DNA of 64,000 bases from Planctomycetaceae bacterium (GTDB lineage: Bacteria; Planctomycetota; Planctomycetia; Planctomycetales; Planctomycetaceae), in NCBI GenBank assembly GCA_002726205.1, contig PBSL01000003.1:5522-69521 (forward strand), in the 5' to 3' direction. A model generated the notes under the pieces. The model was not told the origin of the DNA and searched no databases. It was given only the letters and a program-made list of their open reading frames with translations. Of the stretch, positions 24,337 to 33,480 are shown one piece after another. Every line of letters starts with the position of its first letter. The stretch's first letter is position 1. The translations under genes were made by a program, and so were the position numbers.

Positions 24337-25698
24337 ATGGAATCCAAGGTCGAACGCACCGCGATACTGCTCGCCGCCTGTTTGCTGGGATGTACTCCGG
24401 GCTGCCGCTCGCTGGAGGTCGGTGGCCTCGATCTCGTCACCGCCCCCGTCAACCGTTCACTGGCAGTGATGAAATCGGCGGTGTCCACCGACACCAGCCA
24501 GCACCCCGAGGCCGAATCGGGACCAACCGCCGTCGAGTTGGCCCGTTTCGAACAGGCCACCCGTCTTACCGAGGAAGGGAAACACGGCGAGGCCGAGACG
24601 TTGCTCGTCGATTTGAAGAACAAGGGCTACGCTCGTTTCTTTGACTTCTCCAGTCGCCGCCGCAAGTCCTTCGTCAAGAAGATCGACAAGGATCCTCGTC
24701 TGGGCGACACCCTGAACCCGCACCTGCTGGACCCCGGCGCCGCGCTCAGGGAAGACGCTCTTTTCCTGCTCGCCGAAAACCAGTTTCAGCTGAAGAAATT
24801 CGCACCGGCCCAGGACAACTTCACCGCGTTGATGACCGAGTTCCCCTCGACGCGGCACATCGATCGTGCGACCCAACGCCTCTTCGAAATTGGTCGCTAC
24901 TGGCTTGATTCTCAACATTTCTCGGCGGCCAGCACGATCCGACCCGCCGGCGCCATTGTTCCCGCGGCCGGCTCCGATCCTTCCACCACGCAGGGCTGGC
25001 TAATGACCATGCCGATCCTGCCCAACGTCACCGATCCAACCCGGCCGCTCTTCGACACGAAAGGGCGAGCCCTGCAGGCGTTGAAGTCGATCTGGTTGAA
25101 CGATCCCACCGGACACCTGGCCGATGATGCGTTGATGCTCAGTGCCGCGATCCACCTCGAGCAAAAGAACCGCCGCGAGGCCGACCGCATCCTGACCAAC
25201 CTCCGCAAGCTTTACCCGGACAGCCCCTACCTGGAACCGGCCTTTCTGCTGGGATCGCATGTCCGGTTGCTCTCCTACCAGGGCTCGGAATATGACCAGA
25301 CCCCGCTGGAAGAATCGGCGCAGCTGAAACGTAGCACGCTGGGGTTGTATCCGGGCATCAAGGAAAAGTCCCGCCTGGAAACGGAGCTCAAGGACATCGA
25401 AAATGCCCGGGCGGATCGAGAATGGCAGCGGGTCGAGTTCTACCGTAAGAAGAACCTGCCCAATGCCATGGCCATCCATCTCACCCAGATCCTCGCCCGT
25501 TTTCCCGGTACCGGGCATGCGAAACGCGCCCAGGCGATGCTGCGACAACTCGGTCCCGGCTACGCCAATGGCAAGTGGTTGGCCCAGGAAGTGCAATCGG
25601 TGGGCAACCCCCTGGCCAAGCCGGTTTCGACCAAGACTCCTTCCGGCTCTCTCAACGAGCCGGTAGACGCAAAAGCCCCCTTCCCGCCGAAGAGCTGA
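24337..25698 (+). CDS. TPR-type lipoprotein, BamD-like, function not proven
   Basis: 453 aa from ATG 24337, which has AGGG six bases upstream; ATG 24331 is also in frame. The N-terminus is a lipoprotein signal (AILLAACLLGC, then TPGC). The mature part has repeated helical hairpins of TPR type: AENQFQLKKFAPAQDNFTALMTEFPSTRHIDRATQRL, a block around LNDPTGHLADDALMLSAAIHLEQKNRREADRIL, and HLTQILARFPGTGHAKRA. The pattern of tetratricopeptides ending in aromatic-Pro plus a lipid anchor resembles BamD/YfiO, which helps insert outer membrane beta-barrels. It is twice the usual BamD length. The LptE-like lipoprotein follows on the same strand, supporting an outer-membrane assembly role, by inference. 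Confidence 0.7.
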   Translation: MESKVERTAILLAACLLGCTPGCRSLEVGGLDLVTAPVNRSLAVMKSAVSTDTSQHPEAESGPTAVELARFEQATRLTEEGKHGEAETLLVDLKNKGYARFFDFSSRRRKSFVKKIDKDPRLGDTLNPHLLDPGAALREDALFLLAENQFQLKKFAPAQDNFTALMTEFPSTRHIDRATQRLFEIGRYWLDSQHFSAASTIRPAGAIVPAAGSDPSTTQGWLMTMPILPNVTDPTRPLFDTKGRALQALKSIWLNDPTGHLADDALMLSAAIHLEQKNRREADRILTNLRKLYPDSPYLEPAFLLGSHVRLLSYQGSEYDQTPLEESAQLKRSTLGLYPGIKEKSRLETELKDIENARADREWQRVEFYRKKNLPNAMAIHLTQILARFPGTGHAKRAQAMLRQLGPGYANGKWLAQEVQSVGNPLAKPVSTKTPSGSLNEPVDAKAPFPPKS

Positions 25699-30321: not shown

Positions 30322-31617
30322 TCACGACGACGAGCGAACCACAACCGTCGTGCCCGCGGATCCAATCTGCTCGGCAAATCGCCTCGGAATCCGATACACC
30401 AGTCGCATCCGCTGCTCGTCGTACTCGCTGTCAGTCAACGTGCCGTGTTCGTTGAGGAATGCCAGCAGCCGGCCGTTGCCGATGTCGGTCTCGATTTCTG
30501 CCTCGACCTCCCCCTCACCCAACAACTCGCTGACCGCCACCGAAAGCCGGTCGATCCCAGAACCGGTGGCAGCACTGACAGTCACACAATGCTCGGTCCG
30601 GGCGCGGAGGATGTCGATGTCGGTACGATCCTCGACCGTGTCGACCTTGTTGAGCACCAGGATCTGTTCGAGTTCGTCGGCACCAATGTCTCCGAGAACC
30701 TTGTTGACCGTGGCAATCTGCTCCTCGACACGCGGATGCCCGGCATCGGCGACGTGCAACAACAAGTCGGCGTTGCGGGTTTCTTCCAGGGTCGAGCGGA
30801 AGGAGGCCACCAGGTGATGTGGCAGGTCGCGAACAAAACCAACCGTGTCGCTGAGCAGTACCTCGCCCCAGCCGGAGATCTCCCAGCGACGAGTCCTCGT
30901 GTCGAGTGTCGCGAAGAGCTTGTCGGCCACCAGCACATCCGCACCACACAGCGCCCGCATCAACGTGCTCTTGCCGGCATTGGTGTAGCCGACCAGCGAC
31001 ACCGTCATGTGGTTGGCCCGACGAGCCACCTCGCGGCGGCGGCGGCCCTCGACGGTCTTCAACCGCCGACGCAACTCGGCAACCCGCTTGTCGATCAAGC
31101 GACGGTCGGTCTCGATCTGCCGTTCACCCGGGCCGCGACCGGTGCCGATTCCCCCCTCGATCCGCTCCAGGTGAGTCCACAGTTTCTTCAACCGCGGGCG
31201 GAAGTAGAGCAACTGGGCTAACTCGACCTGCAACTTCGCCTCGTAGGTCTGCGCCCTCGTGGCAAAGATGTCCAGAATCACCTCGCTGCGATCAACGATG
31301 ATCGTCTGCAACGCCTCCTCGAGATTGCGACTCTGTGCAGGCGTCAGGTTGTTGTCGAAGACAACCAGCTGCGCCTCGTGCACTTCGACGAGGTGTTGAA
31401 TTTCTTCCAGCTTCCCGCTGCCAACACAGGTGGCCGGGTGAGGCCGCGGCCGAACCTGGACTACCTCGTCGACAATCCGCACCCCCGCGGTCGCCGCCAG
31501 ACCGCGGATCTCCTCCAATGCCCTCTCGCGTTCGCCCCGCTGGGCATGAGCAAGCACGCGGACCAGGATGCCCCGCTTCTTCTCGACCTTGAGTTCTTCA
31601 CGCTTCGGTTCAGCCAA
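30322..31617 (-). CDS. hflX: Ribosome-associated GTPase HflX
   Basis: 431 aa. The N-terminal HflX domain has VGSGKLEEI and VVFDNNLTPAQSRNLE, then an IVDRSEVILDIFATRAQTYEAKLQVELAQL helix and the Gly-rich GGIGTGRGPGERQIETDRR. The G domain has GYTNAGKSTLM, the SDTVGFVRDLPHHLVASF switch and NKVD. HflX splits or rescues stalled 70S ribosomes. The TTG start at 31617 is used because no ATG or GTG gives a full N-terminus; CAGGT upstream is a weak binding site. Its upstream region on this strand contains the hairpin-rich non-coding stretch and its terminator, so hflX should have its own promoter below 31725. Confidence 0.94.
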   Translation of the reverse strand: MAEPKREELKVEKKRGILVRVLAHAQRGERERALEEIRGLAATAGVRIVDEVVQVRPRPHPATCVGSGKLEEIQHLVEVHEAQLVVFDNNLTPAQSRNLEEALQTIIVDRSEVILDIFATRAQTYEAKLQVELAQLLYFRPRLKKLWTHLERIEGGIGTGRGPGERQIETDRRLIDKRVAELRRRLKTVEGRRRREVARRANHMTVSLVGYTNAGKSTLMRALCGADVLVADKLFATLDTRTRRWEISGWGEVLLSDTVGFVRDLPHHLVASFRSTLEETRNADLLLHVADAGHPRVEEQIATVNKVLGDIGADELEQILVLNKVDTVEDRTDIDILRARTEHCVTVSAATGSGIDRLSVAVSELLGEGEVEAEIETDIGNGRLLAFLNEHGTLTDSEYDEQRMRLVYRIPRRFAEQIGSAGTTVVVRSSS

Positions 31618-31724
31618 CTGTGACCTGCCAGCACGGTGTCGATCAATCTCACCGACAGTTTATGCTGTTGCGATCACGCCATCCAACCCATCACAGCGGC
31701 CTTCTGCAAATCCCGTCGCGGAAT

Positions 31725-32062
31725 TAAACGAACAAACCGAAAGGACGCTTCTCACACGTCCTTTCGGCCCGTCCAGGTGTGATGAGGTGAGGTGGGGTAT
31801 CAGGTGGGAAAAAGGCCCCTCTCCAAGGGCCGGTGGGAGCCGGTCTCTCACAACCGGCGTCTCTCTCACTCGACGTAACCTGTAAGCACCCCGCGTGCCA
31901 TGGCTGGCAAGTTTCCCTTGAATTCCCATCACACGTATCGCGTAAGTCACGTTCACAAAGTGACTTATGCACCATTTACCGGTTTCGATGGACCGGAAAA
32001 GTTGCCGGGGTGCGCAGCCGATTCGTTGCAGTTGTTACAAGTGCCGATCACTCAAAATTGTA
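31725..32062 (-). ncRNA. Candidate structured non-coding RNA in a 620-base gene-free stretch
   Basis: The gap 31618-32237 has no credible gene but carries six consecutive stem-loops: 31737-31767 (11 pairs), 31814-31831 (5), 31839-31858 (6), 31896-31909 (5), 31941-31969 (10 with one G-U) and 31979-31996 (5). Five of the six have 8-9-base loops; the loops of 31737-31767 and 31839-31858 share CTCACA (plus-strand reading). Read on the minus strand, the first-listed stem is followed by TTTGTTCGTTTAATT, a textbook terminator with no gene upstream for it to end. A TACAAT box at 32062-32057 could start an RNA of about 325 bases. I found no tmRNA, RNase P, SRP or 6S hallmarks. It could instead be an interspersed repeat or a long leader. 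Confidence 0.4.
31737..31767 (-). terminator. Intrinsic terminator with no upstream gene on its strand
   Basis: CCGAAAGGACG and CGTCCTTTCGG form a perfect 11-pair stem with a nine-base loop. On the minus strand it is followed by a T-rich tail (TTTGTTCGTTT). The nearest minus-strand gene upstream is more than 1.1 kb away, at 32953. Confidence 0.65.
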
Positions 32063-32237
32063 GAAAACACTCCGAAAGAACGGCTTTCTTGACTGCGGTT
32101 CCGGTTGGGATCGCTCCCGGTGCCAAAACGCGTGCTAGAGTTTTCTGCAGACACTGAGAGCAACACCACAGCCGACCACGAATTCTTTTCGCACCAGGTA
32201 ACGGTGACGAGGGAAGCTGGTTGGGGAGCGAGAACCG

Positions 32238-32921
32238 ATGGACTTCCTGAAGAAATTCATATCGGCCAGGACCCGTGAACCGAGTCCGGAACGTCCGGCG
32301 AGCAGTTTCGCCGATCTTTCCGATGACCAGCTCGAAACACACCTGAAAATCACAAGGTACGGGAGTTTCGTGCTCACCGACGCTGTTCGTCCGTCCTACG
32401 ACCTGCAGGTCGTCCCCCGAACCGGTTTTCGGCACGACACCTACAATGACACGGAAACCGCGATTGCGATTCCCGTGCTGATGGTTTCGGTTTCACGCGA
32501 CGAGGTACTTGACCTGTTCGTCGATCTGCTTGATCCGCTTGGTGGCGAGGTCGACGTGGTTCTGGAGACGAGTCATCACAGCCAGGGCAACGGTCACGAC
32601 GACTACTACCGCGAGAGCATCGAGTTGCCGATCCTCAAGAGCGTGCTGTACGACTTCGAGGAGATGCTGGTCAATGATGGCTGCACGGGAATCGCCGTGC
32701 TGAATCCGAAGCTGCCAATGGAAGTGCAGTTCGATGAGCACAAGATCTTCACGCTGTACGGGCAGGAGTTGCATGAGTTCGAGCAGGTACTCGAGACGCA
32801 CAGCGTTCCCTGCTGCGAGGACATCAAGTTCATCACCGAGGCCGAGCACGTCCACAGTTCGACCGACACGTTCGCCGAGCTGTTCGAACAATTGCGGTTT
32901 CGGCTGGGGATCGACAACTAG
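32238..32921 (+). CDS. Orphan acidic protein, function unknown
   Basis: 227 aa. The ATG is preceded by GGGGAGCGAG about six bases upstream, so the start is well supported. The protein is soluble and acidic, without signal or membrane segments. It has alternating beta and helix patterns (ETAIAIPVLMVSVSRDEVLDLFVDLLDPLGGEVDVVLE), a His-rich turn (SHHSQGNGHDD), and a later GIAVLNPKLPMEVQFDEHKIFTLYG strand pair. I do not recognise a family. It is monocistronic and lies directly after the hairpin-rich stretch, which could also be its regulatory region. It converges on the PH-domain gene. Confidence 0.7.
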   Translation: MDFLKKFISARTREPSPERPASSFADLSDDQLETHLKITRYGSFVLTDAVRPSYDLQVVPRTGFRHDTYNDTETAIAIPVLMVSVSRDEVLDLFVDLLDPLGGEVDVVLETSHHSQGNGHDDYYRESIELPILKSVLYDFEEMLVNDGCTGIAVLNPKLPMEVQFDEHKIFTLYGQELHEFEQVLETHSVPCCEDIKFITEAEHVHSSTDTFAELFEQLRFRLGIDN

Positions 32922-32952: not shown

Positions 32953-33480
32953 TCATCCGTCTTCGCTTCGCGACTCGATTGTCGCCAGGGCCTCACGGAC
33001 GAGTAGCAGGGCGTCCCGACACTCGAAGATGTTCTGCCGAAACACCTCGGGTCGCACGACACCTTCAAGCCGGGCGAGTTCGTTGTCCGAATCGTCCAGC
33101 AGCACCAGGTCGGCGGCGTTGTAGAAGTTCTGCCCCTCCCGGGCCGCCAGCGCGATCTCCTTGATCCCCTCCAGGGGGACCTCGCCCAGCAGTTTTTCTC
33201 CGAGTGCCGACTGGATCTTGATCCGCCTGTTGGTCAGGGCGAATCGCTGCCCCAACAGTTTCAACCGCACGTAGGTCAACGCGGCCAGCGGGGCCAGCAT
33301 CAGCGCCGGGGCGTAAGTCAGTCGAACACCGAGTAGCCGCCAGTCGGGAGCCGATTCCAGGAACCGGCCAATTCCCCGCCCGATGACCGTCGAGGCGACC
33401 GACGGCCAGCGCGTCAGCACGGCACGCTCGGTCTGCGTTTCCGCACCGGGAATCGCCTGGGGAAGAACTGCGGTGCTCAT
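32953..33480 (-). CDS. Bacterial PH-domain membrane protein (YdbS/DUF304-like)
   Basis: 175 aa. Hydrophobic segments at about 50-75 (LTYAPALMLAPLAALTYVRLKLL) are followed by the bacterial PH signature QRFALTNRRIKIQSALGEK and then EVPLEGIKEIALAAREGQNFYNAADLVLLDD. Members of this group are inner-membrane proteins of unknown function. The domain call rests on the 'Y/F-ALTNRRI' core, strand order and length. It stands in the middle of minus-strand genes, with 65 bases to the HD-domain gene upstream. Confidence 0.7.
   Translation of the reverse strand: MSTAVLPQAIPGAETQTERAVLTRWPSVASTVIGRGIGRFLESAPDWRLLGVRLTYAPALMLAPLAALTYVRLKLLGQRFALTNRRIKIQSALGEKLLGEVPLEGIKEIALAAREGQNFYNAADLVLLDDSDNELARLEGVVRPEVFRQNIFECRDALLLVREALATIESRSEDG

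Follow-up and report, generated by a model that had tools for sequence, protein, structure and literature searches.

The CsrB/CsrC and RsmY/RsmZ RNAs contain many hairpins with one repeated loop motif, GGA, which is the core motif of CsrA, and their activator is GacA/UvrY. Qrr is a small RNA with an intrinsic terminator which acts with Hfq. In the excerpt of the Qrr source used here (PMC10162802), the LuxO sites read TTGCAWWWTGCAA, with a 3-base spacer. For CrcZ, the corresponding excerpt (PMC4063720) describes an RNA of 407 nt whose promoter depends on RpoN and is activated by an enhancer-binding protein (CbrB), and in which repeated motifs, six A-rich stretches, titrate an RNA-binding protein, Hfq. 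The stem-loops analysed here appear, judging from sequence comparison, to mark an undescribed planctomycete small RNA gene switched on by sigma factor 54, for which CrcZ, as that excerpt describes it, is the nearest known system in logic.

As in CrcZ/CrcY of Pseudomonas, so far as the excerpt covers them, a sigma-54 promoter is combined with an upstream enhancer site, both recognised here by sequence; the locus differs in its UGAGA-type hairpin loops, in its length of about 140-330 nt and with respect to the Hfq family, which was found in 0 of 59 genomes searched (the same search was positive in 5 of 14 control genomes). Many hairpins with a repeated loop, and hosts that encode CsrA, are features shared with CsrB/RsmZ, but the loop here is UGAGA in a long form and mixed UGAGA/UGGAGA in a short form, and the promoter is of the sigma-54 type. 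The likeness to Qrr of Vibrio lies in the sigma-54 promoter (here predicted) and in palindromic enhancer sites with TTGCA-like halves, while the spacer is 5 bases rather than the 3 of the LuxO sites in the excerpt, Rfam gives no match and Hfq was again found in none of the 59 genomes.

The RNA lies in a gap between genes at positions 31618-32237 of the window (the whole stretch of DNA analysed, 64,000 nucleotides), which confirms the gene-free gap described in the original prediction. One flank is formed by a gene for an HflX-type GTPase (30322-31617, minus strand) and the other by a plus-strand gene (32238-32921) for a conserved planctomycete protein of 227 amino acids without a Pfam match, for which 94 stretches encoding relatives were found. 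Going upstream on the minus strand, the first plausible gene has its end at 32953, in agreement with the claim that none is near. ARAGORN found nothing in the window, and a protein-coding reading was rejected (an overlapping 98-amino-acid ORF at 31660-31956 has no Pfam match, and the block in relatives shows a one-base length change). The minus strand of 31715-32075 was found to fold better than its shuffles (z -3.6), and the plus strand less well than the minus (z -2.5). A terminator scan of 31400-32500 gave four terminator-like sites against 1.4 expected, and the predicted minus-strand terminator with its T-rich tail is present at 31775-31729.

A contig scan using the plus-strand neighbour identified three close relatives (L003-L005) with the same gene order and protein identities of 81-86%. 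With gaps counted as mismatches, positions 31724-31874 were 90.7% identical to these relatives (411/453 cells), compared to 34.6% for 31901-32025 (110/318 cells), 36.8% for 31618-31723 and 47% for 32042-32237; two further stretches, 32026-32041 and 31875-31900, which hold the enhancer-type dyad and the promoter described below, were 79% and 59% identical, respectively. Because 31901-32025 is so much less conserved than 31724-31874, the upstream hairpins are not part of the conserved RNA. Thus, of the six consecutive hairpins originally proposed as one RNA extending to 32062, the folding beyond shuffles stands, whereas the single RNA of six does not: the conserved part covers only about 31874-31724, and conservation does not extend to the hairpins upstream of 31900. 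One of these is an inverted repeat, AAGTCAC-N9-GTGACTT (31941-31970, minus strand), which lies between dyad and promoter, is loosely similar in relatives and is possibly a regulator site, although it had been counted as an RNA hairpin. More distant relatives (L026, L009 and L011) carry an analogous RNA upstream of hflX. When the gap DNA was searched in 59 relatives, only the own genome, with its single copy of the RNA, and one 25-base terminator-like match in G043 (L002), judged to be due to chance, were recovered.

The predicted small RNA (minus strand, 31724-31874, supported by the relatives and by a core covariance model) is about 150 nt long, with its start placed 12 nt past the -12 element. 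It would begin with a hairpin found by folding, GCCGGTTGTGAGAGACCGGC (31839-31858), with GUGAGA in the loop, followed by a core hairpin, GGCCCTTGGAGAGGGGCC (31814-31831), with UGGAGA in or at the loop, in which 4 of 6 pairs changed on both sides among homologues and in which weak inner pairs are also formed in the predicted fold. A G-poor, C/A-rich linker (31776-31813), seen in the alignment and containing CCCACCTGA and CCCCACCTCA, leads to the intrinsic terminator (31724-31775), which has a GUGAGAA loop, an 11-pair core stem and a T-rich tail, and in which 10 of 12 pairs changed on both sides. The loops of the window RNA are therefore GUGAGA, UGGAGA and GUGAGAA; the CTCACA noted in two loops was indeed common to both and reads TGTGAG on the minus strand.

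Directly upstream of the RNA block, in the window and in L003-L005, L026, L009 and L011, the sequence TGGCACR-N5-TGC was observed, the sigma-54 -24/-12 consensus; in the window this predicted promoter is TGGCACGCGGGGTGC (31886-31900, minus strand). The own genome (4.86 Mb) contains 22 instances of the pattern TGGCACGNNNNNTGC compared to 18 of the reversed pattern, without a genome-wide excess, but the pattern is rare enough that chance is unlikely to have placed one exactly here in every relative. The TACAAT box originally put forward as promoter adjoins the enhancer dyad, and a scan of 31400-32500 gave no sigma-70 promoter; the conserved promoter is instead the sigma-54-type one at 31900-31886.

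A covariance model of the core hairpin, linker and terminator (R1, seven sequences, with the promoter kept out of the model) was searched against 170 genomes of the family and matched 72 of them at E <=0.01 (30 of 58 genera as tallied), the E-values being rough as they come from short calibrations. There was one match each in 69 of the 72 genomes; G179 has two real-looking copies, while the second match in G115 looks false, as does that in G124 by its weak score. Three weak matches without a box (G060, G091 and G081; L256-L258) also look false. Among 27 aligned matches 97.5% of cells pair and both partners changed in 14 of 18 pairs, giving a covariation score of 0.486 compared to 0.202 for shuffles (0/500) and a best slid-partner value of 0.131, in an alignment which was fitted to the model and so leans towards structure. 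The proposed check for covariation in homologues thus gave a clear result. In that against Rfam, neither the window nor any of 19 short-form loci was matched; at a low threshold the eukaryotic families U6atac and Six3os1_3 appeared, far below the cut-off, and were rejected.

Sigma-54 boxes were scored (maximum 16.5) upstream of the R1 matches. Of the first 32 loci, 31 had a box of at least 14.5 and one a box of 13.5. Within 260 nt upstream, a box of at least 14.5 was found for 45 of 48 strong hits, many of them close relatives, compared to 5 of 330 control windows (17/330 at 13.5 or above). As 12 of the 48 had been inspected before model building, some of them because of the box, the fresh test comprises the other 36, of which 34 had a box of at least 14.5; nine further hits (L205-L213) all had one. 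The exceptions among the 48 were L125 (13.5), L246 (12.5) and L239 (10.5, with 14.5 at -286). Left out of the 48 were 24 of the 72 loci (L219-L236, L251-L253 and L256-L258), which are other families, second places or weak in E-value; among these the box was absent from the same-family hits L227 and L235, from the second places L251-L253 (genus g56) and from L256-L258, of which L258 overlaps a tRNA-like stretch. Two loci upstream of hflX, L099 and L145, have a sigma-54 box and terminator-like hairpins; the RNA model gave no match to L145 (G007) and only partial terminator matches to L099, and both are possible diverged members of the RNA family.

Of the 24 hits of model R2 listed outside the family, 16 were fetched. 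Ten of these lack a sigma-54 box and resemble ordinary terminators, and the other six (L223, L226, L228, L231, L232 and L233) have a box but a different RNA, so that none was counted as a member. In five of the latter (L223, L226, L231, L232 and L233, family f5) a sigma-54 box of 14.5-15.5 is followed by an RNA with CCTCCAA / GTCCGTCTCCTGA and then a terminator; perhaps these represent a second sigma-54-driven RNA family.

Upstream of the box, recurrent words such as TTACAA and TTGCAA were observed. Motifs were counted in 32 non-redundant short forms, to which 46 loci with boxes of at least 13.5 had been reduced, and the dyad was scored in 30 of these: TTGYA-N5-TRCAA scored 9 or 10 (of 10) in 24 of the 30 upstream regions and 10 in 11 of them. 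No other spacing between 0 and 12 brought more than 8 of the 30 regions to a score of 9 or more, so that spacing 5 alone is enriched; the LuxO-type spacer of 3 was near null (2/30). In most loci the dyad is found at -115 to -180 relative to the -24 box, and in several it is doubled, 25 nt apart, although in one of the 24 high scorers (L242) it is misplaced, too close at -17. In the window the putative enhancer-type dyad (upstream activating sequence) is TTGTAACAACTGCAA (32026-32040, minus strand), a 10/10 match. As the dyad was defined on the regions in which it was counted, cleaner tests are provided by a search for promoter and dyad as a single pattern and by the long-form loci. The single pattern gave 36 matches in 34 of the 170 genomes compared to 2 for a reversed-pattern control. 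By coordinates, 20 of the 36 are short-form loci and 7 are the long-form seeds; at 7 (L261, L263, L264, L265, L272, L276 and L279) no such RNA was recognised, and 2 (G171:C90 and G004) fall outside the inspection.

The seven long-form seeds, promoter and dyad loci in two genera without an R1 match, have predicted RNAs of 178-218 nt with hairpins sharing one loop, for example GACTCG-CCTGAGAAA-CGAGTC. Among the 170 genomes, a model built from them (R3) hit 31, which belong to seven genera, with a single match in 30 of the 31. Of the 25 non-seed places 23 were examined: all had a box of at least 13.5 shortly before the hit (20/23 at least 14.5), compared to best antisense scores of 9.5-12.5, and the dyad was perfect in 21 and had one mismatch in 2. 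R1 and R3 coincide in one genome, G073, at the same locus between a transglutaminase-like gene and hflX, where both hits are weak (4.7e-7 for R1, 1.1e-4 for R3), against an expectation of 13 shared genomes (P(<=1) 1.2e-7 under independence of the genomes, an assumption that does not hold). In G156 an R3 hit is accompanied by an R2 hit that has E 0.003 and lacks a box. Read most simply, the short and the long RNA would be two, possibly homologous, forms of a single gene. At L274 the long-form RNA adjoins a gene which, by eye from its translation, reads like glycogen synthase.

The 23 non-seed long forms contain 67 UGAGA-loop hairpins (1-4 per RNA) compared to 2.5 expected, the commonest loop, CCUGAGAAA, occurring 26 times on stems of differing sequence. 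In the seven seeds UGAGA was found in 24 of 38 predicted loops (1.5 expected) and GGA, the repeated loop motif of CsrB/RsmZ, in 0 of 38 (5.6 expected). In the 32 short forms UGAGA or GGAGA was present in 34 of 147 loops (2.6 expected) and GGA in 35 of 147 (15.6 expected), a repetition seen in only part of this form, while total GGA is depleted (112 compared to 138.7 expected). GAGAG occurs 79 times (21.2 expected) in 20 of the 32 and is absent from 12, so that not every short form carries the repeated loop. One loop recurring on stems that differ has the look of a protein-binding decoy. A search for this loop across the window gave 11 [TG]GAGA hairpins, of which one outside this locus, at 25643, is antisense within a plus-strand ORF, compared to 6 for the reversed motif; TGAGA alone gave 4 compared to 4. 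The short-form linker is enriched in CCCACC (36 compared to 6.9 expected, in 20/32 RNAs) and CCACCTCA (10 compared to 0.2 expected, in 8/32), and looks like a seed that could pair with G-rich ribosome-binding sites; of the 23 long forms none has CCACCTCA and two have CCCACC.

RpoN is encoded in 56 of 59 relatives, and CsrA in all 59 including the own genome, with 2-16 copies each (5 in the own genome). In the excerpt of PMC12316311 used here, sigma-54-dependent promoters are stated for csrA in Pirellula, with enrichment in Planctomycetia. Membership of csrA genes in the present promoter group was not supported, as among the matches listed, which gave 20 csrA upstream regions (3 of the 5 own copies included), one region reached 14.5 and two 13.5. 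The first is in the own genome (L289), where a sigma-54-like site, GGGCACGCATTCTGCA (14.5), lies 150 nt short of the end of the fetched sequence. In G017 (L292), the region upstream of a csrA gene contains a perfect dyad, TTGTAGAAAATACAA, and no sigma-54 box (highest score 11.5).

The explanation towards which we lean, with modest confidence, is a sigma-54-driven minus-strand RNA with an enhancer dyad and a repeated loop, acting as a decoy for an RNA-binding protein. On comparative evidence the minus-strand small RNA is real and is presumably transcribed: conservation, covariation, the conserved promoter and terminator and the single copy in the own genome all support the unannotated small RNA originally proposed, and sequence evidence likewise shows the dyad, the terminator, a promoter-like site, the repetition of the loop and the low number of copies. 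An enhancer-binding protein would activate the sigma-54 promoter through one or two TTGYA-N5-TRCAA dyads some 115-185 nt ahead of the -24 element, and the transcript would end at the intrinsic terminator and display a repeated hairpin loop of the UGAGA or UGGAGA type. Most likely such a decoy would capture an RNA-binding protein whose mRNA targets present the same loop, a CsrA paralogue being the first to consider; when the enhancer-binding protein senses its signal, the captured protein's regulation of those mRNAs would be relieved. Against a decoy stand the conserved C-rich linker of the short form, which a pure decoy would not need, the 12 of 32 short forms without GAGAG, and GGA, which is depleted in the short form and absent from the 38 long-form loops.

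A dispersed repeat (MITE/REP) or chance folding has next to no probability and was counted as refuted: stems which beat shuffles can arise by chance, but the RNA covaries, has a conserved promoter and is present as a single match in 69/72 (R1) and 30/31 (R3) genomes, and it is not a repeat because the own genome holds one copy, which disposes of the interspersed element offered as an alternative. The other alternative offered, a regulatory leader, would make the RNA a 5' leader or attenuator of hflX, which is on the same strand with the RNA about 107 nt upstream. Among 39 short-form loci (L175-L213) with flanks of up to 1.5 kb, however, hflX was near only 11, lying downstream, and 28 had no hflX match; a transglutaminase-like gene (named by eye) was near 23, both near 3 and neither near 8. 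Because of this scarcity of hflX a leader is unlikely, and we consider it very improbable, as the stretch between terminator and hflX is also only 37% identical among close relatives and varies in length, and contains a promoter-like TTGGNT-N18-TAAACT. In the window the latter is TTGGAT-N18-TAAACT (31657-31686, minus strand), similar in three relatives by alignment and possibly hflX's own promoter, although it matches the sigma-70 consensus at 7 of 12 positions and was not reported by the promoter scan.

A strict CsrB/RsmZ-type sponge, whose loops bind CsrA via GGA, is one version of the decoy and not exclusive of it, and is possible though rather unlikely. CsrA with its multiple copies in every genome, the excess of GGA in short-form loops, the sigma-54-like site at one csrA gene of the own genome and several UUGGAGAG hairpins in L241 and L250 are consistent with it; the seven long-form RNAs, with UGAGA and not GGA in their loops, the overall depletion of GGA in the short form and the single csrA upstream region of 20 that reached 14.5 argue against it. 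In L241 and L250, short forms in which the 5' part is enlarged to several hairpins with the loop UUGGAGAG, a CsrA-type sponge could best be tested. It is doubtful that the RNA is instead a sigma-54-driven base-pairing RNA resembling Qrr, in which the G-poor linker (CCCACCUCA) would pair with G-rich ribosome-binding sites, or the purine loops with UCUC-rich targets, and the hairpins would merely stabilise. The main support for pairing is the enrichment of CCCACC and CCACCTCA in a linker that is almost G-free, along with a promoter logic like that of Qrr with its LuxO sites in the excerpt of PMC10162802. The linker motifs, however, occur in only part of the short forms and are nearly missing from the long form, though promoter, dyad and loops are common to both, and Hfq was found in none of the 59 genomes.

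It is plausible, though short of probable, that in planctomycetes without recognisable Hfq the RNA is a sigma-54-switched decoy whose repeated UGAGA loop is the recognition code of an undescribed post-transcriptional regulator, or of a CsrA paralogue shifted away from GGA. Such a small RNA was not found in Rfam (window and 19 short-form loci) or in searches of open-licence PMC papers. Planctomycetes, without recognisable Hfq in 59 genomes, thereby gain a conserved riboregulator candidate with a defined promoter, an enhancer site and a putative protein-binding loop, and the enhancer-binding protein and its signal, the reader of the UGAGA loop and the role of the 2-16 CsrA copies per genome are now directly testable.
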